A DNA stretch of 64,000 nt from Kaistella gelatinilytica (lineage in GTDB: Bacteria > Bacteroidota > Bacteroidia > Flavobacteriales > Weeksellaceae). A program made the position numbers and the translations under genes. The stretch covers positions 1,240,001 to 1,304,000 of the forward strand of contig NZ_JADPVI010000001.1 of NCBI RefSeq assembly GCF_015679325.1, read 5' to 3'. Positions within the stretch are counted from its first letter, which is position 1; each line of letters begins with the position of its first letter. The notes under the pieces are model-generated. The model saw only the letters and a list, made by a program, of their open reading frames with translations, ran no database searches and had not been told where the DNA came from. Below are positions 2,563 to 17,956 of the stretch, piece after piece.

Positions 2563-3333
2563 ATGTTAAAAAAATTACAGATCGCAAACGGTTTTTTCCT
2601 CATTTTCACGATTATATTCAATTATTTGAGCAACACGGGAATATTTAATGGTAAAACTATTGCGAATGTTTCCGATCAATACCACAATTTATTTACGCCC
2701 GCAGGTTATGCCTTTTCAATTTGGGGCGTTATTTACTTACTCTTAATCGGATTTGTTTATTATACGGGCAGAAGTTTGTTCAACCCTTCCAAAAATGAAG
2801 CTGACGGTTTTGTAAAAAAAATCGGATGGTGGTTTGTCGTTTCCTGTCTTGCAAATTGTGCGTGGATTTTAACATGGTTATATGGTTACACAGGATTATC
2901 GGTAATTGTTCTGTCGATCGCTTTTATTTCTCTTTTAATCATATTAATGGAAGCTTTAAAGTACAATTCTACTATCGCACAAAAATGGTTCATCAACTTT
3001 CCATTTCAAATTTATGCAGGTTGGGTCAGTGTGGCCTTGATCGCCGCTGTTGCTGCCTGGTTAACCAAAATAAAATGGTCTGCATTCGAAATTTCTGAGG
3101 AAAAATGGACCATCGTAATGATTGTTATCGCGACCATCATTCACGTAGTAATGATCTTCAAAAAGAATGCTCCAATTTTCGCTTTGGTCGCAGTTTGGGC
3201 TTTAATAGCAATAGCTGTTGCAAACAAAGAAGTAAGCCAGTATATTTATATTGCAGCTTTGATTGCGGCGGGATTTATTTTTATAAGCAGTTGCCTGAAA
3301 ATATATCAGGACCGATCCGCCGTAAAAATTTAA
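2563..3333 (+). CDS. TspO-like tryptophan-rich integral membrane protein
   Basis: The 256-residue protein is almost entirely hydrophobic, with about seven or eight membrane segments. The loop NLFTPAGYAFSIWGVIYLLL resembles the TspO/MBR motif that binds tetrapyrroles and cholesterol in the classical five-helix family. This protein is longer than classical TspO (about 160 residues), so it belongs at best to an extended branch. The family assignment rests on that loop and on scattered tryptophans; a specific ligand cannot be deduced. A hairpin terminator follows 25 bp downstream, so the gene is probably monocistronic. Confidence 0.62.
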   Translation: MLKKLQIANGFFLIFTIIFNYLSNTGIFNGKTIANVSDQYHNLFTPAGYAFSIWGVIYLLLIGFVYYTGRSLFNPSKNEADGFVKKIGWWFVVSCLANCAWILTWLYGYTGLSVIVLSIAFISLLIILMEALKYNSTIAQKWFINFPFQIYAGWVSVALIAAVAAWLTKIKWSAFEISEEKWTIVMIVIATIIHVVMIFKKNAPIFALVAVWALIAIAVANKEVSQYIYIAALIAAGFIFISSCLKIYQDRSAVKI

Positions 3334-3419: not shown

Positions 3420-4634
3420 ATGAAAAACGCATATATTATCGACGGAACTCGTTCTGCGATCGGAAATTTTAAAGGAAGTTTGGCACCCGTAAGAACTGAT
3501 GATCTGATGGCTTCAGTTCTAAAAAGTCTTATTGAAAAAAATCCAGATTTACCTTTAGATAAAATTGATGATGTTATTATTGGTTGTGCGAACCAAGCTG
3601 GTGAAGATAACCGTAATGTGGCAAGAATGGCTTTGCTTCTGGCTGGAATTCCAATCAATGTTCCGGGCGAAACAGTGAACAGATTGTGTGCTTCCGGAAT
3701 GAGTTCGATCGTTCAGGCAATGCGCGCGATCAGATCTGGTGAAGGAGATTTATTTATTTCAGGCGGTGTTGAAGGAATGTCGAGAGCGCCTTATGTTCTT
3801 TCAAAATCAGAATCAGCATTTGGAACAGATTCTAAAATGTTTGATTCCAGTTTCGGATGGCGTTTTGTAAATCCTGCGATGGAGAAAATGTACGGAATTG
3901 ATGCGATGGGAAAAACCGCTGAAAATCTTGCCGAACTTTATAAAATCTCACGCGAACAACAGGATGAATTTGCTTTGAATTCTCAAATAAAAGCGACGAA
4001 AGCGCAGGAAAGCGGACGATTGGCAGAAGAGATTTCTGACATTAAAATTCCACAAAGAAAAGGTGATGCGATCGTTATTAACAAAGATGAGTTTATCAAG
4101 CCAACCTCTACTTTAGAAATTTTAGGAAAACTGCGACCGGCTTTCATGAAAGAAAATGGAACGGTTACTGCTGGAAATGCTTCGGGATTAAATGACGGTG
4201 CCGCTGCAGTAATTATCGCTTCAGATGATGCGGTGAAAAATTATAATTTAAAACCTTTGGCAAAAATCGTAAGTTCTGCCGTAGTTGGTGTCGAACCCAG
4301 AATTATGGGAATCGGTCCGGTTGAAGCAACGAAACTTGCTTTAAAAAGAGCAAACTTAACTTTGGATCAGATCGATATCATCGAATTGAATGAAGCGTTT
4401 GCAGCACAAAGTATTGCGTGTTTAAAAGAATTAGGAATTGCTAATAATGATGCACGAGTTAATGTAAACGGTGGCGCAATTTCTTTAGGTCATCCGCTCG
4501 GAATGAGCGGAACCAGGATTACTTATTCTGCAGCTTTAGAACTTCAAAAAACTGGTAAAAAATATGCTTTGGCTACGATGTGTATCGGTGTTGGACAAGG
4601 TTATGCGATTATTTTGGAAAATGTAAATATCTAA
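3420..4634 (+). CDS. Acetyl-CoA C-acyltransferase (thiolase, PcaF/PaaJ/FadA type)
   Basis: This is a full-length thiolase of 404 residues. The acyl-accepting Cys90 lies in TVNRLCASGM, the active-site His358 in ISLGHPLGMSGTR, and the second Cys388 in ATMCIGVGQGYA. It cleaves 3-ketoacyl-CoA to acetyl-CoA and a shortened acyl-CoA. The N-terminal half (GCANQAGEDNRNVARMALLLAG) resembles 3-oxoadipyl-CoA thiolases of aromatic degradation, but no paa or pca genes are present, so the substrate is unresolved. The 3-hydroxyacyl-CoA dehydrogenase at 7186-8085 could supply the preceding step, though it lies on the other strand in a separate unit. The enzyme is cytoplasmic. Confidence 0.93.
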   Translation: MKNAYIIDGTRSAIGNFKGSLAPVRTDDLMASVLKSLIEKNPDLPLDKIDDVIIGCANQAGEDNRNVARMALLLAGIPINVPGETVNRLCASGMSSIVQAMRAIRSGEGDLFISGGVEGMSRAPYVLSKSESAFGTDSKMFDSSFGWRFVNPAMEKMYGIDAMGKTAENLAELYKISREQQDEFALNSQIKATKAQESGRLAEEISDIKIPQRKGDAIVINKDEFIKPTSTLEILGKLRPAFMKENGTVTAGNASGLNDGAAAVIIASDDAVKNYNLKPLAKIVSSAVVGVEPRIMGIGPVEATKLALKRANLTLDQIDIIELNEAFAAQSIACLKELGIANNDARVNVNGGAISLGHPLGMSGTRITYSAALELQKTGKKYALATMCIGVGQGYAIILENVNI

Positions 4635-6530: not shown

Positions 6531-7091
6531 TTAAATTTCACTTCTGATTCTACTTAATGTTTCCTGTGAAATCCCAAGGTAAGACGCGATCATGCCTAAA
6601 GGTGCGCGCAGAATAATGTTCGGATTTTCGTGAATTAATCTTAAATATTTTTCTTTAGCTGTGTGAAATTGAAGCGAAGAAATTCGGTCGGTCATTTGAG
6701 TAATGATATTTCCTAGTACAAACCGGCTAAAATTGGCACTTTCTAAAGATACTGAACACAATTCTTCCACTTTTGCGTAGTTGCAGAATTTAACGGTGCT
6801 TTCTTCGACGGCCTCAAAATTATATCGGGTAGGATTATTTTGAAAAAGTGTGTCGGAATTTGCCATTATATTTCCTTCGATATAAAATTTTGTCGTAATT
6901 TCTTTTCCGTTTTCGTAATAAAAAGAACGTATCAGACCTTGTTCTACAAAATAAATATTTCGATTGTATTGATCCTGTTTGCTGATCAGTTCTCCTTTTT
7001 TGAAAGTTTTGGTTTGAAAATCTCCATTTAAAAATTTTTCAATTTCAGGATTGTTTTTCAGATTATGGGGAAGAGCATCGATAAGTTCCAT
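6531..7091 (-). CDS. Crp/Fnr-family transcriptional regulator
   Basis: The protein has 186 residues. An N-terminal cyclic-nucleotide-type beta-barrel (KKGELISKQDQYNRNIYFVEQGLIRSFYY split by its usual loops) is followed by a dimer helix and a C-terminal helix-turn-helix (LGMIASYLGISQETLSRIRS). It lacks the N-terminal cysteine cluster of oxygen-sensing FNR, so an iron-sulfur sensor is unlikely; the signal is unknown. The adjacent 3-hydroxyacyl-CoA dehydrogenase promoter, and the tolC promoter further along, carry TTGAN6TCAA palindromes of the kind this family binds. That makes this protein the best local candidate for their regulator, though this is inference. Confidence 0.88.
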   Translation of the reverse strand: MELIDALPHNLKNNPEIEKFLNGDFQTKTFKKGELISKQDQYNRNIYFVEQGLIRSFYYENGKEITTKFYIEGNIMANSDTLFQNNPTRYNFEAVEESTVKFCNYAKVEELCSVSLESANFSRFVLGNIITQMTDRISSLQFHTAKEKYLRLIHENPNIILRAPLGMIASYLGISQETLSRIRSEI

Positions 7092-7185: not shown

Positions 7186-8085
7186 CTATGGTTTCAGAAA
7201 ATCTACGTCTTGAAAAGTAGGATTTGGATATTTATAAAAGCCTTCCAAAGTTGAAAGTCCAAGCTTGTTTTGATCGATAAAATTTTTCTTCAAATAATCT
7301 ACTACTTTACCCGCAGTTTCATCTTTTGTTTTTTCAAATTTAATTTTATTGATGTTATATGCAGTTGTAATTCCTACCACATCCAAAATTCCAAATGGAC
7401 CAACCGGTGCGCCTGTTGCGACCATCCAGGCTTTATCTACCGTTTCTACATCGGCGACATCATTCACCAATAAAGTGGTTGCAGCATCCAAAAGCGGAAC
7501 CAGTAAAGAATTCACAATGTAACCCGGCTGTTCTTTATGAAGTGGCAAAGCAACCATTCCAATATTTTTCGCAAAATCCACAACATCCTGAAAAACTTCG
7601 GGATTGGTCGTTGCATGACCCATAATTTCTGCGGTGTTGTGTTTCCAGATTTCATTCGCAAAATGCAGAGATAATAATTTCTCCGGTCTTCCACTTACCG
7701 AAGCAAACATACTTGGTAACAAGGTTGAAGTGTTGGTTGCAAAAATGGTTTTCTGCGGTGCGAGGGGCGCCAGTTTCGTATAAAATTCCGTTTTAATTGC
7801 GGGGTTTTCCGGTATCGCTTCGATCATTAAATCCGCATTTTTTACAGAATCTTTTAAATCAGTGGAATAAGAAATTCTTTCGAAAGTTTCTTCCAGTTGG
7901 GCATCTGTAACATTAAGATCTTTTTTAAAGTTTTCTGCCAGAATTTGGAAACTCTTTTTTGCTTTTTCTAAAACCTCATCATTAATATCATAAACAACCA
8001 CGTTGAAACCGTGAAAAGCAGACTGAAATGCAATCTGTGAGCCTAAAACTCCACTTCCTGCAATAGTAACATTTTGTATTTTCAT
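7186..8085 (-). CDS. 3-hydroxyacyl-CoA (3-hydroxybutyryl-CoA) dehydrogenase
   Basis: The 299-residue enzyme oxidises 3-hydroxyacyl-CoA to 3-ketoacyl-CoA with NAD. The Rossmann motif IAGSGVLGSQIA opens the protein, an acidic residue near the end of the second strand (VVVYDIND) indicates NAD preference, and the catalytic segment reads FATNTSTLL ... SLHFANEIWKHNTAEI, with the expected Ser, His and Glu. GYIVNSLLVPLL supplies the conserved Asn. The C-terminal helical domain follows with VGPFGILDVVG. Two terminators and its own promoter make it a monocistronic unit. The promoter has a Crp/Fnr-like palindrome, so expression is probably tied to that regulator. Confidence 0.94.
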   Translation of the reverse strand: MKIQNVTIAGSGVLGSQIAFQSAFHGFNVVVYDINDEVLEKAKKSFQILAENFKKDLNVTDAQLEETFERISYSTDLKDSVKNADLMIEAIPENPAIKTEFYTKLAPLAPQKTIFATNTSTLLPSMFASVSGRPEKLLSLHFANEIWKHNTAEIMGHATTNPEVFQDVVDFAKNIGMVALPLHKEQPGYIVNSLLVPLLDAATTLLVNDVADVETVDKAWMVATGAPVGPFGILDVVGITTAYNINKIKFEKTKDETAGKVVDYLKKNFIDQNKLGLSTLEGFYKYPNPTFQDVDFLKP

Positions 8086-8117: not shown

Positions 8118-8166
8118 ACCTCAAAGTTGCAATTTAATCGGCACAATTCCTTTGATATATATCAAA
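8118..8166 (-). promoter_or_regulatory. Promoter with Crp/Fnr-type palindrome for the dehydrogenase gene
   Basis: TTTGATATATATCAAA at 8151-8166 is a perfect 16-bp palindrome containing the classical TTGATN4ATCAA box. On the minus strand it is followed by GGAAT, 16 bases, and then CAACTTTG (8122-8129), a one-mismatch match to the TAnnTTTG -7 box. The palindrome centre falls about 40 bp before the expected start, the position of a class II activator. The tolC promoter has the same arrangement base for base in spacing. Confidence 0.68.
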
Positions 8167-8175
8167 ATCGATATA

Positions 8176-8208
8176 AAAAGAACGTCCGAACCGAAGTCCA
8201 GACGTTCT
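8176..8208 (-). terminator. Terminator of the TolC/HlyD/permease operon, UUCG loop
   Basis: AGAACGTC pairs with GACGTTCT, and on the minus strand the inner stem closes with a TTCG tetraloop. A run of T follows. The stem is about 14 bp including wobble pairs. Confidence 0.82.
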
Positions 8209-8240
8209 CAACAAACAAACAGTATGAAAACTGTTATTTT

Positions 8241-9482
8241 TTAATTCAGAAAATTTTCATCGTCAATGATTAAATTCGGATTTTCTTGGCTAGGAATTTC
8301 TTCCTCGTAATCTTCTGAAACATTATATTTTTTAAATAAGAAATGGATTTTAATTTTCAAAGCGATCCAGCCGATAATGAAATAAACCCAACCTAAAATC
8401 AGCAAGTGAACCAGATATTTTTTAGTCAAAATTGCAGATCCATTTTGTACCACCATGATCTTCAGCGCTTCTAAATAAGGCGTTAAAGGAATAATCGCAG
8501 TAAAATTTTTGATAAATTCCGGCATGGCGTAAGTTGGCCACGTAAATCCACTGATAATAAATGCAGGCGACGCGATCACCATTAAATACTGAGTCGCTTT
8601 CAGCGCATCCGGAATTACGATACTTACCAAAACTCCGAGATTCGTCGCTGCGACGACAAAAACTGCGGTGATTAAAAAGAAATTCCAGACATTATCCGGG
8701 ACGGGAATTTTGAAATAGAGACTGCACAGATAGAAAAAAAGAATGTTGAAATTCGCAAAAACCCATATTGGCAGACATTTTATCGCCATCACGGCAACGG
8801 CATATTTTTCCTTACCTGCAAAATCTTTGATGAAGGATTCTCTTTTAAATTCTTCGGAAAATGAAACAGCCATCGCCAATAAAATCACCTGCTGTAAAAC
8901 GACCGCCATCATTGCGGGCCACATAAAAACTAGGTAATTGCTGGTCGTGTTGAAGAGCGTAATATAATTCGCTTTGAAAGGTTCGAACTGGGTTTTCGCC
9001 AAATCGGCATTCATTCCTTTTTTTTGTAGTGCTTTTATTTCTGCTCCGGCGGAAAACGTTCCTAAGGTTTGCTGAATGGCCTTCGTTGCGAAATTCGCCG
9101 TCAAAACGTTTGAAGTGTTTACATAAACATTCACTTCCGGATACTTTTTCTGCAACATCATTGCTTCGAAACGTTCCGGAATGATGATCACTGCAGCTGC
9201 CTCTGTTTTGATAGTTTCATCTTTCAGGTTTGCCGGTTCGTTGATGTAACTCAGCACTTTTATCGCTTTGCTGTCCTGAAGCATTTCCAAAAGTTGGTCC
9301 GATAAAGGCGTGTTGTCGTGATTCACCACGATCACGGGAATGTTTTCTACTTTCCCGGATTGATACGTAAACCCGATCAATAATGCATAGAAAACCGGCG
9401 CTAAAAAGAAAACCGAAATCAAGGTTTTGTTCGTTAAGAACAGGCGGAATTCCCTTTTTAATAAATATCTAATTTGTTTCAT
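8241..9482 (-). CDS. ABC-2 type transporter permease (YhhJ-like export subunit)
   Basis: The 413-residue membrane protein has the ABC-2 layout: one helix near residues 18-38, a large periplasmic domain (to about residue 180, including PVIVVNHDNTPLSDQLLEML), then about five helices. It is the third gene of a tolC-hlyD-permease operon and starts 22 bp after hlyD. It would form the inner-membrane part of a tripartite exporter. No ATP-binding subunit is encoded in the operon, which closes with a terminator, so the energising ATPase must come from elsewhere or the permease works differently. The substrate is unknown; drug or toxic-compound export is the usual guess. Confidence 0.9.
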   Translation of the reverse strand: MKQIRYLLKREFRLFLTNKTLISVFFLAPVFYALLIGFTYQSGKVENIPVIVVNHDNTPLSDQLLEMLQDSKAIKVLSYINEPANLKDETIKTEAAAVIIIPERFEAMMLQKKYPEVNVYVNTSNVLTANFATKAIQQTLGTFSAGAEIKALQKKGMNADLAKTQFEPFKANYITLFNTTSNYLVFMWPAMMAVVLQQVILLAMAVSFSEEFKRESFIKDFAGKEKYAVAVMAIKCLPIWVFANFNILFFYLCSLYFKIPVPDNVWNFFLITAVFVVAATNLGVLVSIVIPDALKATQYLMVIASPAFIISGFTWPTYAMPEFIKNFTAIIPLTPYLEALKIMVVQNGSAILTKKYLVHLLILGWVYFIIGWIALKIKIHFLFKKYNVSEDYEEEIPSQENPNLIIDDENFLN

Positions 9483-9504
9483 TTTGTGACTTTTAGTTAA
9501 ACAA

Positions 9505-10464
9505 TTACTTTAAAGTCACATTAGAATTCACCAAAATATCTTTCGCTGCCTTCTTATTTTCCGGCACAACTTTGATTTCGTAAATCGCTTCTTCCGGTTC
9601 GTAATCAGGGAAAGCCGTCGTGATATCTGCATATTTTGCCAGTTGTTTAATGGCGACAATTTTTCCGGTAAATTCTTTTTTGTTATAGTTTACCAACATT
9701 TTGACGGTCATTCCTTTTTGATATTTCGAAATTTTACTTTCGGGAATCGTGAATCTGAAATAAGAAGTTTCGGGAATGTAACCTGTGAAAAGTGGATAAC
9801 CTGCAGTTGCCAATTCTCCTTTGTTCAACGCGATGGTTTCAATTTCCATGTCATTGGTGGCAATGATGTATTTTTCAGAATTCGCAATATTTGCTTCCTG
9901 CAAAGCGCCGGCTGCTTGATTTGCTTGTCCTTGCGCCATTTCAATTTTTTCGTAGCGCGTTCCGGATTGCACATCATGAAGTTCAGCATTCACCGCATCC
10001 AATTGTGCTTTTGCACCTTGGTATTTTGCAAAATATTCATCGTAATTTTGGGGCGAAAGCAAACTGTCATCATACATATTTTTTGCTCTGTTAAAAGATT
10101 TTTGAGCATATTGAAACTGCTCTTGCAAACCTTTTTGTTTGGCTTTTAACTGACGAAGTTGATCATTGGTTGCTCCATTTTTCGCCATTTGAACTTGTGC
10201 TCTTGCTGCAGAAGTTGCACCTTTTGCCTGCGCAATTTTCGCGGAAACTTCAGGAACATCTAAAATCGCAAGCGTATCGCCAACTTTCACGGTTTGTCCT
10301 TCTTCCACTTTAATGGTGAGAATTCTTCCGGTCAATTTTGGGGCGAAGGAAACAATTTCCTTTTTCGTTTTGCCCACAATTTCTCTTTCAGGTTTTGATT
10401 CTTTACAGCCCGAAAGTGCAAGAGCACTTGCCAAAGCCAAAGAAGTTAATACAGTATTTTTCAT
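9505..10464 (-). CDS. HlyD-family membrane fusion lipoprotein
   Basis: From the ATG at 10464 the protein begins MKNTVLTSLALASALALSGC, a lipoprotein signal peptide with lipobox LSGC. I prefer this start to an in-frame ATG 17 codons upstream, because the upstream codons would bury the signal peptide. The mature part has the biotinyl-lipoyl half (GRILTIKVEEGQTVKVGDTLAILD), a long alpha-helical hairpin rich in Ala and Gln (about residues 75-190), and the beta-barrel end (MTVKMLVNYNKKEFTGKIVA). It bridges the permease and TolC across the periplasm, and the gene lies between those two in the operon. Confidence 0.92.
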   Translation of the reverse strand: MKNTVLTSLALASALALSGCKESKPEREIVGKTKKEIVSFAPKLTGRILTIKVEEGQTVKVGDTLAILDVPEVSAKIAQAKGATSAARAQVQMAKNGATNDQLRQLKAKQKGLQEQFQYAQKSFNRAKNMYDDSLLSPQNYDEYFAKYQGAKAQLDAVNAELHDVQSGTRYEKIEMAQGQANQAAGALQEANIANSEKYIIATNDMEIETIALNKGELATAGYPLFTGYIPETSYFRFTIPESKISKYQKGMTVKMLVNYNKKEFTGKIVAIKQLAKYADITTAFPDYEPEEAIYEIKVVPENKKAAKDILVNSNVTLK

Positions 10465-10568
10465 GTCTATTGTTTGTTTGTTTGTTGTATTGTTGAAGGA
10501 ATTTTCTTCCGTCATTTTCTCTTATCTAAAAGTCTATATCTATTATCTTTCAGTCTGTCCTCTTTAAT

Positions 10569-11975
10569 TTAAAGTTTTTCGAGCTGTAAATTCTGCGTAG
10601 ATTTCATCAGTTCGATGGCGCTTCTTCTTTGATTGAAAATTGCGTTCTGATATTCCAGTTCGGCATTTTGTAAATCATTTTCGGCTTCAATTAAAGCCGC
10701 GGAAGTTTTGGTTCCATATCGAAATTCCTTTTCCACTTGTTCTAAACCTTGTTTTGCAATTTCACGGGATTTTTCTTTCAATTTGATTTGAGAATTCGCT
10801 ATCGTGTAATTCGTTTGATTGTTGGCTAAATTCAGATTCAGTTTTTTAGATGCATCGCGTTTTTTATTTTCCAAAATTTCTTTTTCAATTTTGGCTTTTT
10901 CTACCAGATGCTTTCCTTCATTACCATCAAAAACATCCCATTTAAAACCAACTCCGGCTTGAACCAAAGGCAACACATTTAAATTCGATGGATTAAAATC
11001 CAGTTTCTTTCCAGAGTTGGGCAACAATTCTTTTGACGTTGAAATATTCCCATTAAATAATCCAATATAACTTACGGAAGTTTGCGCCTGAACTTTCGGA
11101 ACCCACCATCTTTCCTCGGCTTTAATTTTATAATCAGTTGCTTTGATGCCGTGATCCAGGGCTTGAATCTCTACTCTATTCTCAATGTTTTGATCAAGAA
11201 CTTCATAGGAAATAGTTTCCAATTGTGGCTGAATTAAAGCAATTCTTTCTCGTTCGATTCCGGTCAATATTTCGATCTGAGTAATCAGCAATTCTTTTTT
11301 TCCTTCGTATTCTACTAATTTCGAATCCAAAGTTGCTTGCGCCAATTCAATTTTTTTATGATCGTAAGGAGTGATTAATCCGTAACCTAATGCTTTATCA
11401 GCCGTTTTTTTATTGATATCTAAACGTTTTTTTGCTTCATCTAAAACTTTCTTCGATTCCTGAACCAAGGCCATTTGATCATACGCTTTAGAAATTTCGG
11501 TAATGATTTCATCCCGGCTTTTCTGCATCAATAAATTTTCAGAAATATTTTTTTCCTTGTTGGCTGCTTTCAGATATTTCACTTTTCCACCAGAATAGAG
11601 CAAAACACTCGCCTCGGCTTTTGCCATGGTTGAAATCCCAGAAATATTAAGATTATTTGAAAGTTGACCTTCAGGAATTACAGCGCCCGGGAAAATGGGT
11701 GGAAGTGCGGGAAGATTAATTTCAGGCGAATTAAGACGCGCGGAAGTGTAGAGATATCCAGCCTTTCCTGTTACTTCAACTTTCGGAAGAAAAACATCTT
11801 TCAGTTTTTGATCATCGAGTTGGGTATATTTATTTTCGAGGGTTTGTTGGGTTAAAGTTCCGTCGTTTTTTAGCGCGCTATCGATCAGTTCCTGTAAAGT
11901 CGGCGCTTGTTGGGCAGAAAAAACCAGCGGGAAAAAGACCAGCAATTTGGCCAAATTATTTTTAAGCGTTTTCAT
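10569..11975 (-). CDS. TolC-family outer-membrane efflux protein
   Basis: From the ATG at 11975 the protein has 468 residues and begins MKTLKNNLAKLLVFF with a signal peptide ending near FSAQQ. Two OEP repeats follow, each with long amphipathic helices (for example TLQELIDSALKNDGTLTQQ and the C-terminal EKEFRYGTKTSAALIEAEND). It forms a trimeric outer-membrane channel. A longer reading frame could begin at 12038, but that codon lies inside the promoter palindrome and upstream of the predicted transcription start, so it cannot be used. The gene heads the operon with hlyD and the ABC-2 permease gene. Confidence 0.93.
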   Translation of the reverse strand: MKTLKNNLAKLLVFFPLVFSAQQAPTLQELIDSALKNDGTLTQQTLENKYTQLDDQKLKDVFLPKVEVTGKAGYLYTSARLNSPEINLPALPPIFPGAVIPEGQLSNNLNISGISTMAKAEASVLLYSGGKVKYLKAANKEKNISENLLMQKSRDEIITEISKAYDQMALVQESKKVLDEAKKRLDINKKTADKALGYGLITPYDHKKIELAQATLDSKLVEYEGKKELLITQIEILTGIERERIALIQPQLETISYEVLDQNIENRVEIQALDHGIKATDYKIKAEERWWVPKVQAQTSVSYIGLFNGNISTSKELLPNSGKKLDFNPSNLNVLPLVQAGVGFKWDVFDGNEGKHLVEKAKIEKEILENKKRDASKKLNLNLANNQTNYTIANSQIKLKEKSREIAKQGLEQVEKEFRYGTKTSAALIEAENDLQNAELEYQNAIFNQRRSAIELMKSTQNLQLEKL

Positions 11976-11997
11976 ATTCGTTGTCTGTTTGTTTGTG

Positions 11998-12046
11998 GGT
12001 ACAAAGTTGAGCATAATATGTTTTGATTCCTTTGACATTTGTCAAA
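11998..12046 (-). promoter_or_regulatory. Promoter with Crp/Fnr-type palindrome for the export operon
   Basis: TTTGACATTTGTCAAA at 12031-12046 has arms TTTGACA and TGTCAAA. On the minus strand it is followed by GGAAT, 16 bases and CAACTTTG (12002-12009), exactly the layout of the dehydrogenase promoter at 8118-8166. The transcript would begin near 11998, giving a leader of about 23 bases that contains ACAAACAAACAG. Confidence 0.65.
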
Positions 12047-12075
12047 AAGGTAATTTGTAAACGAATTTTTCGGAC

Positions 12076-12108
12076 AAAAAAATCCGCTTCAAAATTGAAA
12101 CGGATTTG
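12076..12108 (-). terminator. Rho-independent terminator of the alpha-2-macroglobulin gene
   Basis: The minus strand forms a stem of about 13 bp from AAATCCG to CGGATTT followed by seven T. It isolates the macroglobulin gene from the export operon downstream. Confidence 0.82.
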
Positions 12109-12127
12109 TGATTAGTGGAAGTGAAAA

Positions 12128-15100
12128 TTATTCGGTAATCGTAACTTTCGTTCCTTTCGTATGTGCATTCATTTGCGGTGCGTAATAATTTTGCAACGTT
12201 GTAATTCCATTGCTGAATGTTCCCGATGCGTTACAAATATAATCGTACTCGAAAACATATTTTCCTTTCGGCATGTATTCGATGTAGAAGTTCGTGGACG
12301 CATCTTTAGTCGATTGATAATATCCTAAACCGTTTTTCCATTCATAACCGGAAATGACATTTAAAGGTTCAAATCCTGCCGCTCTCATGTCTTTCAAGTG
12401 AATAAATTCCATATTTCGGTCCGTGTTCAAAATCATTCTTACGGTGACTTTATCACCAACTTTTAAGGGCGAATTTTCTGTAATTTTCACCAATTCTTCG
12501 CCATTCACAGTTTTTACTTTCTTGTACAATTCTTTAGTGATGGAAAGGTAAGATTCGGAAGATTTTATTTTATCCAGATCCTCATAATATTGCCAGAATA
12601 ATCCACCTTGAACAATTCCAGGACCAGGTTTTGTGACGGTCACTGTTCCTAATTTTTTGTCGATATCTTCTCCTTTTAAAGTTGATTTCACATAACCTGT
12701 CGCTTTCGTATCAGGATTGGTTAGTTCTTTTCCGCCCCAAATTATCGTGGCTTTATCACTTTCAGAACTTGTCCAGGATTTTCCTGAATTAAGAATCGTG
12801 AAAATAACTTCCGCCGTTCCGCGTGAACTTCCCCAGGAATTAACTTCTTTCTGCGTGATCAACCAAATTTTCATTTCTTCAATGAAAGTTTCATCCGTTG
12901 GCGTCAACTTATTAAACGCTTCCAAAGCTCCGGCGTGATTCACGGTTTTGGAATTATACCATCCCCAATCGTTGAGATTTTGTTTCCAATAAATTCCTTG
13001 AGTTTCCGATTCTGTGGAAGTTTCTTTTAAATAAGTCAGTAATTTTTTAGATAAAACCGGCAGTTTATAATCATTAAAAAGTAAAGCAGCACGATGCAAA
13101 CCGAAGAACGTAAAATCAGTGATTTTCGCAGTTGGTGCTTTTTTAATGACCAAATTTTTCAGTTGCGCACCTTTTCCTTTTAACGGAAAGTCTTTTTCCC
13201 AGAAATTTCTGGTGTCGAGATAGTCGAGAACATAATTATTCCAAACGTGTTCTTTCTTCACATCCCAATATTTATGAACTTCAGAATCTACATAATTAAT
13301 GAGTTTTGCAACCATTTCTTTTTGCGCTGATGATTGATAATCCGCTGTATTTCCTTTCAGCCATTCATTAATTTTCCCTAAATTTTTCAAGATGTAAAGG
13401 GAGTTGTAATAGGAACTCGGATAACCTTGATACCAGGAAAATCCACCATCTGGATTTTGCAATTTATGCAATTCGCTCCAATCTTCATTGATGGAATTTC
13501 GCATATTATTCGCGTCAAATAATCGAGCGAGTTTTTCCATTTGCTCCGTTTCATTTTTACTTTCCAAAACCCACGGAGTTTCTTCCAAAAGCAATTGTTT
13601 CAGTTCCTGATTTTTTTCCAGGTTAGAAACTAATAAACCTTTGCTTTGATATTCTTCGAAAACGGTTTTTAATTTCGGATTCGCTTTAAAAATTTCGGAA
13701 GCCAAAACATCAGCAAACCATTTATTAAAAACGACATCCGCAGAATTGTTCGTGTCATTTTTCAAACTTGGCAAAGCAAACATAATTTCCCAAATCGGAT
13801 TGGTCGTCAATTCCAAAGTATTGGAGAAATTGGTTGCGGTGGTCGAAGTGTTTTTTGCTAAATTTTCTAAAGTAAAAGTTTTGGTTTGACCTTCTTTCAC
13901 AAAAATTGGAACCGCGTCTGTCACCAACATTCTATTTGGCAACACGGCGATTGCTTTTTGTTCACCATCAGAAAAATTCCCCGCTTTGGCCACGACTTTT
14001 ATAATCATGGGAGAAACATCAATTGGAACTTTTAATTTCCAGCTTACGACTTCATTTCCATTCTCTTTTAATTCAAAGGATTTTTGAGTTTCATTTAAAT
14101 TGAATTTAGATGAAATATCTTCATTCGTAAAAGCATCTAAAATTTGCAACTGCGCAGTTCCACTCAATTTCTTAGCAACTAAACTGGAGAGTTTTGATTG
14201 CAGATTTAATTCATCACCTTCCCGCAAAAATCTCGGATAATTTGGCGTTACCGAAAACTCTTTTTGAGTAACAACTGATTTTTCTAAAGTTGCAGAACGC
14301 GCATCTTTAGTATGTGCTAAAAACATCAATTTCCATTGGGTTAATGCTTCCGGCGAAGTAAATTCAAAAGTGACATTTCCGTCTTTGTCGGTCATTAAAT
14401 TAGGATAGAAAAAGGCGGTTTCGTTAAGATTTTGACGAACTGGGATTTTGTCGAGGTCTAACTTTTTTTCTTCAATATTTTTAGTTTTGATTGAATCTGT
14501 GGCATAACCTACACTCATTTTCTCTCTTTTTACTCCTAGTGCCGTCACCACGACTCCTTCAACATCATGCGATTCTCTAATTTCTTTTGCTGATGCCATT
14601 GGAGCGGAAACGCTATCATACATAACATTCCCATAAATACCGCCATTAAACCAATTAAATTCCGGAATATTTACATTCTTTTGTCCTAAATAAGGAACTC
14701 TTTTGCTAAAGTTTTTCTGCGAAAGATTTTCGTTAATTACATAAGAGTTCATGATGAAAGATCTTTGATAGATTTGTTGGAAAGAATAAGAATTACCCGC
14801 AAATTGATCCAGAGATTTATCATACATATTCGCCAAAACTTCAGCGTTAATTTTTTCTTTATCATCGCCCATAACTTTAACCGTCCATTTTTCTTTTTGT
14901 CCAGGCTGCAATTTATCACGGAAAGTAACGGTTTCAATTCGCAATGGTTTTTTGTCGGAAGCAATTGAAAGATTGATATTTTCAGTTTTTACATCGTTAA
15001 AAGCGACCAACTGAAACTGAACATTGATTTGATCGATGCTTTCATCTTTCGGAAAAGCAACTTCATATTCTAAAAGTCCATTTTTGAATTTTTTCTGTTC

Positions 15101-17956
15101 CGTTAGAGTTTCGCCATTTCCATTTTGAACATAAACATTTACCAAAGCATCCGGAACTGCAGAATACACGTAGATTTTCGCTTTCTCATTTCGCTTGTAT
15201 TCTAATTTTGGCTGGATCACTTTCAAATAAGGATTTTGAGATTCTGTCAAAAATCGCTTGTCATAAACAGCGAAAGTTTTTTCGGTTTTAATGCTATCTT
15301 TTCCTTCTATATTAAAGAGTTCGAGTTTGTAATTTCCAGCAGAAAGTTTTCCAAGATCTAAGGATTCTTCACCTCGTTTCTCTCCATTGATAATGATAGA
15401 TTGTGTTTTCCACTCTTTCTCTTCTTTAGAAAAATAATCATGCGGGAATTTTTGAATGAATTCAGATTTTGAAAACTTCGGCAGATCCTGAATTTGATTT
15501 TCAAAATTAGTTCGGAAAATCCTTTCTTTAGGCTGAAGTTTCGACAATTTAACCTGATACATTTTTTTTAAATTCTGATCATTATAATTTTTAGTTTCTA
15601 CTTTAATTTTGATATTCTCATCGGTGAACGTATCTTTGATATCATCTGCTTTGATATAGTGCGAAACAGAAGCAACTTTTACATTTTCTGTAGAAGATTG
15701 CGTTTCTCCGTTAATGTCGGTTACAGAAGCATTAATTTGATAATTATCAACTTGAATTCCTTCTAAAGTTTCATCTTTTTTCAGATCGAGTTTAATAATA
15801 AATTCTCCTTTATCGTTGGTTTTAACTTCTCCGAGAATTGAGTTTTCATTATCATTTCCTCTTGAATACCACCAAAAATATCTCCAGCGAATATTTTGTT
15901 TTTTGATTTCATAATTCAAAATTGCATTGCTTAAAGCAATACCCGAAAACATCACTGCTTTTCCTTTCAATTCGATGGTTTGCCCGTATTTATATTCTTC
16001 TTTAATGGGTTCAAAAGTCACCTCAAATTTCGGCCGTTTGTATTCTTCAACTTTAAATCCTTTGTAAGCATCTATTTTATTTGCATGAATTTGAAGGGAG
16101 AATTGTCCATTCAGTTTTCCGTTCGGTAAAGTGAAACTTCCGTGGTAAGAACCGAACTCATTGGTAGTGAATTTTTGAGAAGAAATTTTTTCACCGTTGG
16201 CATCATTTAAAGTTATTTCCTGGGAAACACCAGACGACACAGATTCTTTATCCATCAACAATTTCGTGTTGATCACTTTAAAATAAACAATTTGTCCGGG
16301 ACGATAAATTCCGCGATCGATAAAAATCTGCGCCAGATTTTGCTGTCCAGTTTTTTGCGGTTGATCATAATTTCGAGTGCCGTAAACCTGCATCAAATTG
16401 TAATCATTTGAAGAAGGTTGCTGAATCAGATAATGACGGTAATAATCATTATTCTTAGAAACTGGGAATTTAAACAGCGCAAACTGATCTGTTTTTGCCA
16501 CAAAAGAATTGGCTTTGTTATCGTTTGTAAATTCATATATTTTCAGATTTTCATTCGAAACTGATTTCCCATCTTCGCGATTCACCAATTTTAATTGGCC
16601 AGAGATGCTTTTACGTTCATCTTTTTTATTATAAATAATTCTGGAATTTGTGGCAATGAAATAAAAATTCTCCTGAATCGTATTTTCCACCACATATTCC
16701 GCGAGATAGATCCCGGAAGGAAGAGCTTTTATTTCCAGAGAAGTTTTGTGATTTTTATAATCTCGTAAATCCTCTAGATCGAAACTTTCTTTTCTCACCA
16801 ACGTTTTCTTAACCGCTGGAAAACGAGTTTTATCGTACGAATTTGCCACATATTTCAGAAAATTCTGCTGATCGTCTTTAACTTCATAAATATTCAAAGA
16901 AAACTTAGAAACATTTTTTGCGTCGGCAACCAAGTGAATCGGCAAATTTGACTGCGTATGTGTTTCGTAATGAATCGTTAAATTGGGTTGAAGAATACTG
17001 TTTTCCCGATTAAGAATACTATTTATAAATTTAGATTTTGCATATTGTTCTTTCGTATTTTTAATCAAAGCAAGCGCTTCAGTATATTTTTGTTCAGCCG
17101 TTAACTGATCAACTATTTCAGCAATAATTAATACTTTATAATCTCCTTCTGTGGAAGATTTAACCAAATTTTGAAGTTGTTGAGTTTTGTCTTTACAATT
17201 GGTAAAATCACAGTCATCATTTAATTTTTGATGTTGAAAATAAAGTTTTGAATTTCCTGAATTTTTATTTATTAATGCGGAATACAGATCTGAAATCTTA
17301 GATTGATTGATTTTCAGTTCATTTGTAGTGAAGAGTTGCGAATTATTATAGAATTTAATCTCATTCATTGCATTCCAGTCAAATAAAGTGGGGAAGAAAT
17401 GTAAGTCTTCGGTGTCCTCAAAAATTTCTTTGTATTTTGAAATTTGAATTTTCTGCAACTCTACTTTTTTCCCTGCTAAAACGGTAAAATGCTTGGTCAG
17501 ATAATTTTTAAAATCCAGTTTCGACCACGTTTCAATCTGGGAAAGATCCTGATTATTGAAATTGGTTCGCTGATTTATTTGCCACTGATTTTCATTGTAG
17601 TAATCACCAAAAAATTCGCCCAACAAAACCTGAAATAATAATTTTTCGTCGCCTTTCAATTTCTCATCGAAACCGCTCAACTTTTTAAAAAATACGCTTG
17701 AAGAATTATTTTTAGTGTCATCATACGTTTGATTCACGATGCTAAATTCTGCTTTCAAAGAACGAATAAGTTGAATGGCGTTGTCTTCTTTCATAGATTG
17801 GTTTTGAATTTCTAAAATTAAAGGCAGATTCGATTTGAACTTTCCCGTTTTGTAATTTTCAGCGATTTTTTTCCATTGGTCATCATAGTGTTTCTGTCCG
17901 AAAACATAAGCAAAACTAAATAGCAAAAGGAGGATTGTAAAAATTTTATTTTTCAT
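12128..17956 (-). CDS. Large alpha-2-macroglobulin family protein without thioester motif
   Basis: This 1942-residue secreted protein has a signal peptide (residues 1-20, ending YVFG) and no lipobox cysteine. The MG2 segment is recognisable near residue 549 (DRGIYRPGQIVYFKV), and the alpha-2-macroglobulin segment near 1176 (NETAFFYPNLMTDKDGN). The helical complement-like domain (LQNPDGGFSWYQGYPSSYYN) follows. In thioester family members a C-x-E-Q motif precedes that domain; here the aligned stretch, around residues 1400-1410, reads NNSADVVFNKWFADVL, so the covalent trap is absent. Residues about 1130-1152 (VEGVVVTALGVKREKMSVGY) resemble the start of SusC/RagA receptors. Bacterial relatives are thought to guard the periplasm against proteases. 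The gene is divergent from the UbiA-like gene, 51 bp away. Confidence 0.93.
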   Translation of the reverse strand: MKNKIFTILLLLFSFAYVFGQKHYDDQWKKIAENYKTGKFKSNLPLILEIQNQSMKEDNAIQLIRSLKAEFSIVNQTYDDTKNNSSSVFFKKLSGFDEKLKGDEKLLFQVLLGEFFGDYYNENQWQINQRTNFNNQDLSQIETWSKLDFKNYLTKHFTVLAGKKVELQKIQISKYKEIFEDTEDLHFFPTLFDWNAMNEIKFYNNSQLFTTNELKINQSKISDLYSALINKNSGNSKLYFQHQKLNDDCDFTNCKDKTQQLQNLVKSSTEGDYKVLIIAEIVDQLTAEQKYTEALALIKNTKEQYAKSKFINSILNRENSILQPNLTIHYETHTQSNLPIHLVADAKNVSKFSLNIYEVKDDQQNFLKYVANSYDKTRFPAVKKTLVRKESFDLEDLRDYKNHKTSLEIKALPSGIYLAEYVVENTIQENFYFIATNSRIIYNKKDERKSISGQLKLVNREDGKSVSNENLKIYEFTNDNKANSFVAKTDQFALFKFPVSKNNDYYRHYLIQQPSSNDYNLMQVYGTRNYDQPQKTGQQNLAQIFIDRGIYRPGQIVYFKVINTKLLMDKESVSSGVSQEITLNDANGEKISSQKFTTNEFGSYHGSFTLPNGKLNGQFSLQIHANKIDAYKGFKVEEYKRPKFEVTFEPIKEEYKYGQTIELKGKAVMFSGIALSNAILNYEIKKQNIRWRYFWWYSRGNDNENSILGEVKTNDKGEFIIKLDLKKDETLEGIQVDNYQINASVTDINGETQSSTENVKVASVSHYIKADDIKDTFTDENIKIKVETKNYNDQNLKKMYQVKLSKLQPKERIFRTNFENQIQDLPKFSKSEFIQKFPHDYFSKEEKEWKTQSIIINGEKRGEESLDLGKLSAGNYKLELFNIEGKDSIKTEKTFAVYDKRFLTESQNPYLKVIQPKLEYKRNEKAKIYVYSAVPDALVNVYVQNGNGETLTEQKKFKNGLLEYEVAFPKDESIDQINVQFQLVAFNDVKTENINLSIASDKKPLRIETVTFRDKLQPGQKEKWTVKVMGDDKEKINAEVLANMYDKSLDQFAGNSYSFQQIYQRSFIMNSYVINENLSQKNFSKRVPYLGQKNVNIPEFNWFNGGIYGNVMYDSVSAPMASAKEIRESHDVEGVVVTALGVKREKMSVGYATDSIKTKNIEEKKLDLDKIPVRQNLNETAFFYPNLMTDKDGNVTFEFTSPEALTQWKLMFLAHTKDARSATLEKSVVTQKEFSVTPNYPRFLREGDELNLQSKLSSLVAKKLSGTAQLQILDAFTNEDISSKFNLNETQKSFELKENGNEVVSWKLKVPIDVSPMIIKVVAKAGNFSDGEQKAIAVLPNRMLVTDAVPIFVKEGQTKTFTLENLAKNTSTTATNFSNTLELTTNPIWEIMFALPSLKNDTNNSADVVFNKWFADVLASEIFKANPKLKTVFEEYQSKGLLVSNLEKNQELKQLLLEETPWVLESKNETEQMEKLARLFDANNMRNSINEDWSELHKLQNPDGGFSWYQGYPSSYYNSLYILKNLGKINEWLKGNTADYQSSAQKEMVAKLINYVDSEVHKYWDVKKEHVWNNYVLDYLDTRNFWEKDFPLKGKGAQLKNLVIKKAPTAKITDFTFFGLHRAALLFNDYKLPVLSKKLLTYLKETSTESETQGIYWKQNLNDWGWYNSKTVNHAGALEAFNKLTPTDETFIEEMKIWLITQKEVNSWGSSRGTAEVIFTILNSGKSWTSSESDKATIIWGGKELTNPDTKATGYVKSTLKGEDIDKKLGTVTVTKPGPGIVQGGLFWQYYEDLDKIKSSESYLSITKELYKKVKTVNGEELVKITENSPLKVGDKVTVRMILNTDRNMEFIHLKDMRAAGFEPLNVISGYEWKNGLGYYQSTKDASTNFYIEYMPKGKYVFEYDYICNASGTFSNGITTLQNYYAPQMNAHTKGTKVTITE

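Follow-up and report, generated by a model that had tools for sequence, protein, structure and literature searches.

A Crp/Fnr-type operator shared by an export operon and a dehydrogenase gene in Kaistella gelatinilytica

Two promoters with one composite operator

The window analysed here is a 64,000-nucleotide stretch of the Kaistella gelatinilytica genome (contig NZ_JADPVI010000001.1, positions 1,240,001 to 1,304,000), in which two minus-strand promoters 3.9 kb apart carry the same type of palindromic operator at the same distance from the -7 box. Composite 1 (8122-8166), upstream of a 3-hydroxyacyl-CoA dehydrogenase family gene, reads TTTGATATATATCAAA-GGAAT-N16-CAACTTTG, and composite 2 (12002-12046), upstream of a tolC export operon, reads TTTGACAAATGTCAAA-GGAAT-N16-CAACTTTG. 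Operator 1, TTTGATATATATCAAA, occupies 8151..8166 and operator 2, TTTGACAAATGTCAAA, occupies 12031..12046, each on the minus strand and each with a predicted centre at -41.5. Abutting them are the GGAAT motifs at 8146..8150 and 12026..12030, for which the moderately conserved consensus is RGAAT. The -7 boxes, CAACTTTG in both cases, lie at 8122..8129 (TTTG at 8122-8125) for the dehydrogenase promoter and at 12002..12009 (TTTG at 12002-12005) for the tolC promoter, with predicted transcription starts (+1) at about 8117 and 11997. An earlier interpretation made without database searches, the sequence-only reading, had placed both palindromes correctly, although it gave the second as its plus-strand complement. 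The identical spacing that it described also holds, although the palindrome ends 21 nucleotides (nt) before CAACTTTG, not 22, and 25 nt before TTTG.

The minus-strand gene order begins with a large macroglobulin-like gene (12128-17956) upstream of the tolC operon, followed by tolC itself (10569..11975), encoding a TolC-type outer-membrane efflux protein of 468 amino acids (PF02321), and by genes for a HlyD-type periplasmic adaptor (9505..10515; PF16576) and an ABC-2 type membrane permease (8241..9482; PF12698). The dehydrogenase gene (7186..8085; PF02737, PF00725), of the PRK08293 / diketoreductase type, comes next, and then the gene for a 186-amino-acid Crp/Fnr-type regulator with a cNMP_binding domain (6531..7091; PF00027, 2.7e-12). 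The regulator gene had been thought to adjoin one of the sites, but the dehydrogenase gene intervenes and separates them by approximately 1.06 kb. The start of tolC is fixed by its orthologues, which give the ATG at 11975 and a product of 468 amino acids, and not the start at 12038 of a longer open reading frame, which would fall inside operator 2; for the hlyD gene the orthologue starts correspond to MKNTVLTS, internal to the open reading frame. Terminator hairpins lie ahead of both promoters, one in a minus-strand stretch 3' of the ABC-2 gene (8168..8230; RNA fold -20.7 kcal/mol, z -4.7) and one belonging to the upstream macroglobulin-like gene (12044..12120, minus strand; -17.7 kcal/mol, z -5.5), so that the export genes and the dehydrogenase gene form two transcription units with one operator apiece. 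We note that the tolC-hlyD-ABC2 operon (8241-12038) includes a permease but no ATPase gene, both here and in the listed relatives; either the ATPase is supplied from elsewhere or the permease is unlike the usual ABC-2 exporters.

The nearest named relatives of the 3.2 Mb genome belong to Kaistella, Chryseobacterium and Cloacibacterium. Pattern searches of this genome find the composite at exact match only at these two promoters. TTTGAN6TCAAAGGAAT has two exact matches, which are the two sites, and TTTGAY-N4-RTCAAA-N25-TTTG likewise has two, so the composite proposed in the sequence-only reading does not occur at random genome-wide. With one mismatch allowed the second pattern has nine matches genome-wide against one for the reversed control; all nine overlap predicted reading frames, none is placed as a promoter element would be, and no further regulon members were found in the genome. 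The bare palindrome with one mismatch occurs 23 times in the window against 17.8 expected, which is not significant, and since it does not rise above chance the evidence lies in the spacing and the conservation. A candidate site near another crp paralogue (C1:244268) is internal to that gene and was rejected.

Conservation and promoter geometry

The pattern TTTGAYN4RTCAAAGGAAT has 42 exact matches in 296 family genomes, against one for the reversed pattern, and most of them lie just ahead of tolC orthologues. Six of the 42, with TTTGACGAATATCAAAGGAAT (L047-L052), fall within a single conserved coding gene and have not been treated as regulatory. When the promoters are examined independently of the pattern, the palindrome is present upstream of all 35 tolC orthologues of at least 65% identity that were examined, and in most of them ACTTTG or AATTTG follows at the same distance. 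The dehydrogenase gene occupies this place in three species, and operator 1 reads TTTGATATATATCAAA in K. gelatinilytica, TTTGACAAATGTCAAA in G149 and TTTGATATATATCAAg in G134; its spacing to TTTG is kept in all three, and one half-site is degraded in one of them. Of 36 congeners, 26 have both the tolC operon and the regulator gene and the others have neither, which is supporting evidence only, because the two are neighbours and shared loss is expected.

Two other features of these neighbourhoods are seen among the relatives. Beyond the regulator cluster most congeners carry a thiolase gene (3420-4634 in the window, plus strand), which has no TTTGA-type operator ahead of it. In one genome (L068, G158) the ABC-2 gene downstream of the operator is broken near 3176-3179 into two reading frames that overlap, possibly by a frameshift or a sequencing error.

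Searching named genomes for the regulator yielded 80 Bacteroidota loci, some of them close relatives of one another; the search patterns favour E-type recognition helices, but the DNA beside the gene is not biased by that. TTTGAYN4RTCAAA is present near crp or tolC in 60 of the 80 loci, and TTTG stands at exactly +25 nt in 54 of 62 palindromes, with no other offset occurring more than twice. The order crp, operator, tolC, hlyD, ABC2 recurs in Flavobacteriaceae, Cyclobacterium, Arcticibacter and Brumimicrobium, at loci whose TolC proteins are only 27-45% identical to that of the window. Of the 54 spaced sites, 52 have A three bases ahead of TTTG, only 14 keep the T of the consensus TAnnTTTG, and a conserved -33 element is absent. 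This comparative evidence shows the operator pair to be a genuine control element, found across the phylum, of a small Crp/Fnr-type regulator. A separate observation is that one contig filed as Limnohabitans, of the Pseudomonadota (L218), has a Bacteroidota-type regulator and operator beside an amidase gene, and probably reflects contamination during binning.

The standard class II position of an activator, known from Escherichia coli CRP and FNR, is centred at -41.5. In Flavobacterium psychrophilum the -7 box TAnnTTTG lies at -12 to -5 (PMC9723704), and the 25-nt spacing then places the palindrome at -49 to -34. The predicted operator centre is thus -41.5 at both window promoters, and the class II placement suggested from the sequence is supported by the spacing in 54 of the 62 palindromes together with the published box position. 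It is conceivable that the same Crp/Fnr protein binds here and represses both promoters until a ligand releases it, as a local TetR- or MarR-like switch would, and most of the relatives are indeed local one-operon regulators beside an efflux operon, a layout typical of derepressed pumps. A repressor needs none of the rigidity with which the activator position is kept, however, and a -7 box that mostly lacks its T, in promoters with no conserved -33 element, resembles those of activator-dependent promoters. We therefore consider repression unlikely and infer activation.

The regulator and its operator code

The 186-residue protein matches PF00027, the Crp/Fnr N-terminal domain, with 46.9 bits against a cut-off of 27.5. 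Its AlphaFold model (mean predicted local distance difference test score 93.4) has helices at 165-172 and 176-185 and superimposes over its whole length on FNR (Z 18.6, root-mean-square deviation 2.4, 181 residues), with residue 186 corresponding to FNR 218. The model helices, the FNR match and the recognition helix SQETLSRIR, directly after which the protein ends, constitute a C-terminal helix-turn-helix, although no Pfam helix-turn-helix family matches the regulator; the wing is absent because the protein stops at 186. E177, S180 and R181 superpose on FNR E209, S212 and R213, the residues that read TTGAT in FNR. No cysteine is present in the N-terminal 100 residues, residue 1 of the model aligns to FNR 23, and the FNR-proper profile scores 23.9 bits, below its cut-off of 228. 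The CRP-proper profile NF008732 gives 19.8 bits against a cut-off of 266. By domain and fold the regulator is a Crp/Fnr protein, and it is neither FNR proper, the oxygen sensor with cysteines for a [4Fe-4S] cluster, nor CRP proper, the cAMP receptor.

The relationship to the known members is accordingly one of shared build and different detail. With FNR (Aliivibrio fischeri / E. coli) the window system has in common the fold, the E/S/R recognition residues, the half-site TTGAT and the -41.5 centre, but the regulator has neither the N-terminal Fe-S cysteines nor the wing, and its promoters differ from class II FNR promoters in having a -7 box of the Bacteroidota kind and in serving one or two local units. 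With E. coli CRP it has in common the cNMP_binding fold, the TGA-N6-TCA core and the class II position, whereas the half-site is TTTGA and not TGTGA, the profile score is far below the cut-off, and cAMP is not the expected ligand. The closest solved sequence relative is the cyclic nucleotide binding regulatory protein of Cytophaga hutchinsonii (PDB 3dn7; 9e-12), which has the same short build and whose entry gives neither operator nor function.

Evidence that ties this protein to the site comes from the joint variation of recognition helix and operator. Among the 80 loci a TTTGA palindrome is found near 59 of the 63 E..SR regulators but beside none of 16 that have other helices, and a blind palindrome search at about the same spacing in the non-E..SR loci returned TTTAA-N6-TTAAA. 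When TTTG was required at +25 and one mismatch was allowed, E..SR loci scored 55/63 for the TTTGA type and 0/63 for the TTTAA type, and Q..SV loci 0/14 and 12/14, respectively. Six control half-sites gave almost no matches; one of them had five one-mismatch matches among the Q..SV loci, for which the best explanation is that they are these same TTTAA...TGAAA sites. The Fisher p for the association, uncorrected for phylogeny, is 2e-13. When a tree is constructed with the recognition helix left out, all 68 scorable loci (window included) fall on the diagonal, 56/56 for E..SR with TTTGA and 12/12 for Q..SV with TTTAA, and three independent changes of the helix are each matched by a change of the operator. 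In held-out loci a TTTGA operator stands beside none of 31 non-E helices, beside 8 of 20 E..SR helices at exact match, and TTTAA is present in one of two Q..SV loci. The window's own operators match its recognition helix in this code. In the classic altered-specificity mutants of CRP the loss of Glu181 is accompanied by loss of the G at the same half-site position; the same Glu-G loss is seen here, where the switch is natural and has occurred about three times.

This lockstep switching also bears on the idea that another regulator, of TetR type or a Crp/Fnr paralogue, owns the operators and that the nearby crp gene is a bystander. The genome encodes six PF00027 proteins, one with the helix ESLSR: a second short regulator (G000:C1:996880-997140, L098) whose helix reads PESLSRVRKE. 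Against this idea, the helix changes jointly with the operator three times, and crp lies beside the site in Weeksellaceae, Flavobacteriaceae, Cyclobacterium, Arcticibacter and Brumimicrobium. TetR regulation was rejected, since inspection by eye of the listed neighbourhoods revealed no TetR-like gene. A different owner is thus highly improbable, and the sequence-only proposal that the 186-residue regulator reads both sites and governs a small regulon is supported by footprint, spacing, helix-operator lockstep, co-presence and the presence of only two operators.

Other members of the family show further variation. Regulators with the helix V..SR (L340, L347, L352, L372, L374) often have TTTAACNNNNGTAAAA or TTTATCNNNNGTTAAA at the 25-nt spacing, perhaps a third operator class of the form TTTWAC/TTTWTC. 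A more distant Crp of approximately 26-34% identity is present in genus g21, which is Chryseobacterium-like (L080-L082, L084); it is followed by TTTGAYTTTTRTCAAAGGAAT and, 3' of that, a gene for a 359-amino-acid membrane-protein-like product (MKKRIIGFDLARAYAIFGM...), the same build with a different target.

Export, dehydrogenase and a possible fatty-acid signal

The dehydrogenase contains the 3HCDH_N and 3HCDH domains and exceeds the cut-off of NF006143 (430 bits against 312), and its nearest solved structure is the diketoreductase 4dyd. In L161-L163 one operator precedes an oleate hydratase gene (PF06100; NF010584) and then a dehydrogenase homologue, and a second precedes a lipase-like alpha/beta hydrolase gene and then the regulator; in L180 crp is followed by the dehydrogenase gene and then the oleate hydratase gene, and a TTTAA-type operator with one mismatch lies about 21 nt beyond crp. 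L192 and L220 have a related hydrolase gene behind their export genes. One further genome (L300, G160:C2:277150-277827) has a partial oleate hydratase match that a TGA interrupts, a broken copy of a gene that is intact in four other species of the genus.

A 10-hydroxystearate-oxidising enzyme of Nocardia, found via homology to the Micrococcus luteus enzyme, is annotated as a 3-hydroxybutyryl-CoA dehydrogenase (PMC7101164). Family resemblance and gene context suggest that the window enzyme, too, may be a long-chain hydroxy-fatty-acid dehydrogenase; the diketoreductase-like type and the operon shared in relatives with oleate hydratase make hydroxy fatty acids likelier than beta-oxidation. The joining of two operators into one regulon, as proposed from the sequence, is supported, and its acyl-CoA metabolism needs correcting towards hydroxy fatty acids. 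In Lactobacillus, oleate jointly induces oleate hydratase, a fatty-acid pump and the tetR gene of the pump (PMC11429459). The ohyA-farE-tetR group of Lactobacillus and Staphylococcus (PMC11429459) resembles the present one in uniting efflux, oleate hydratase and a dedicated regulator gene, but its regulator is of TetR type and its pump is FarE, whereas the window has a Crp/Fnr-type regulator without a TetR-like neighbour by eye, a TolC-HlyD-ABC2 exporter, and a response to fatty acids that is only proposed.

The scenario we favour, with a probability of about 0.83, is that the 186-residue regulator reads both operators and activates the tolC operon and the dehydrogenase gene in class II fashion in response to a lipophilic ligand. 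We infer binding as a dimer, in which each recognition helix (E177, S180, R181) would read one TTTGA half-site. Centred at -41.5, the bound regulator would take the place of the missing -33 element and recruit RNA polymerase to the weak -7 box (xAnnTTTG), and a ligand in the cNMP-type domain would turn on the two units, tolC-hlyD-ABC2 for export and the dehydrogenase gene. The ligand is probably not cAMP; the best guess is a (hydroxy) fatty acid or similar lipophile, and we propose with moderate confidence that the regulator may respond to unsaturated or hydroxy fatty acids. It would then probably switch on genes that export and detoxify fatty acids or similar oily compounds, these being the putative exported substrates.

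Several observations count against this scenario. Corrected for phylogeny, the covariation amounts to three events only (sign test p 0.25), too few for significance, so that its strength is the exact match of base and residue. Among the held-out loci, 10 of 20 E..SR regulators have no such operator nearby, and the paralogue at C1:996880-997140, with its related helix, could bind or compete for both sites. Oleate hydratase was not found in the K. gelatinilytica genome, and the fatty-acid part therefore rests on relatives. Other family members lie ahead of genes for RND pumps, amidases, DoxX-like proteins and metallo-beta-lactamase-fold proteins, and this variety of targets indicates that ligands differ within the family.

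The last two points, and the score of the dehydrogenase above the 3-hydroxyacyl-CoA dehydrogenase cut-off, would suit a signal that is another lipophile, an antibiotic or a redox cue, with an ordinary 3-hydroxyacyl-CoA dehydrogenase sharing the regulator. On the other side, dehydrogenase, oleate hydratase, alpha/beta hydrolase and regulator genes recur together in varied orders (L161-L163, L180), and operators stand ahead of both hydratase and hydrolase. We would give this alternative even odds; it disputes the ligand only and leaves intact what the scenario we favour says of operator and regulator.

More broadly, and more tentatively, at slightly less than even chance, the regulator may belong to a short, wingless Crp/Fnr family that extends across Bacteroidota with an invariant class II geometry and repeated natural switches of specificity (E..SR/TTTGA, Q..SV/TTTAA and perhaps V..SR/TTTWAC), the window branch of which would sense fatty acids and control export together with the oxidation of hydroxy fatty acids. 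The operator sequence had no match in the literature searched, nor were relevant reports of Crp/Fnr regulons found there (subscription journals were outside its scope). To our knowledge little is known of the local regulators in Bacteroidota, and for most Crp/Fnr proteins of the phylum no operator has been assigned. In this family the operator may be readable from the recognition helix, and its targets in a genome can be found with one composite pattern. The natural helix-operator switches would provide ready-made pairs for tests of specificity, and the fixed -41.5 geometry suggests that the unusual -7 promoters of Bacteroidota can accommodate class II activation as well. The link to oleate hydratase would open a fatty-acid defence response of flavobacteria to direct test.

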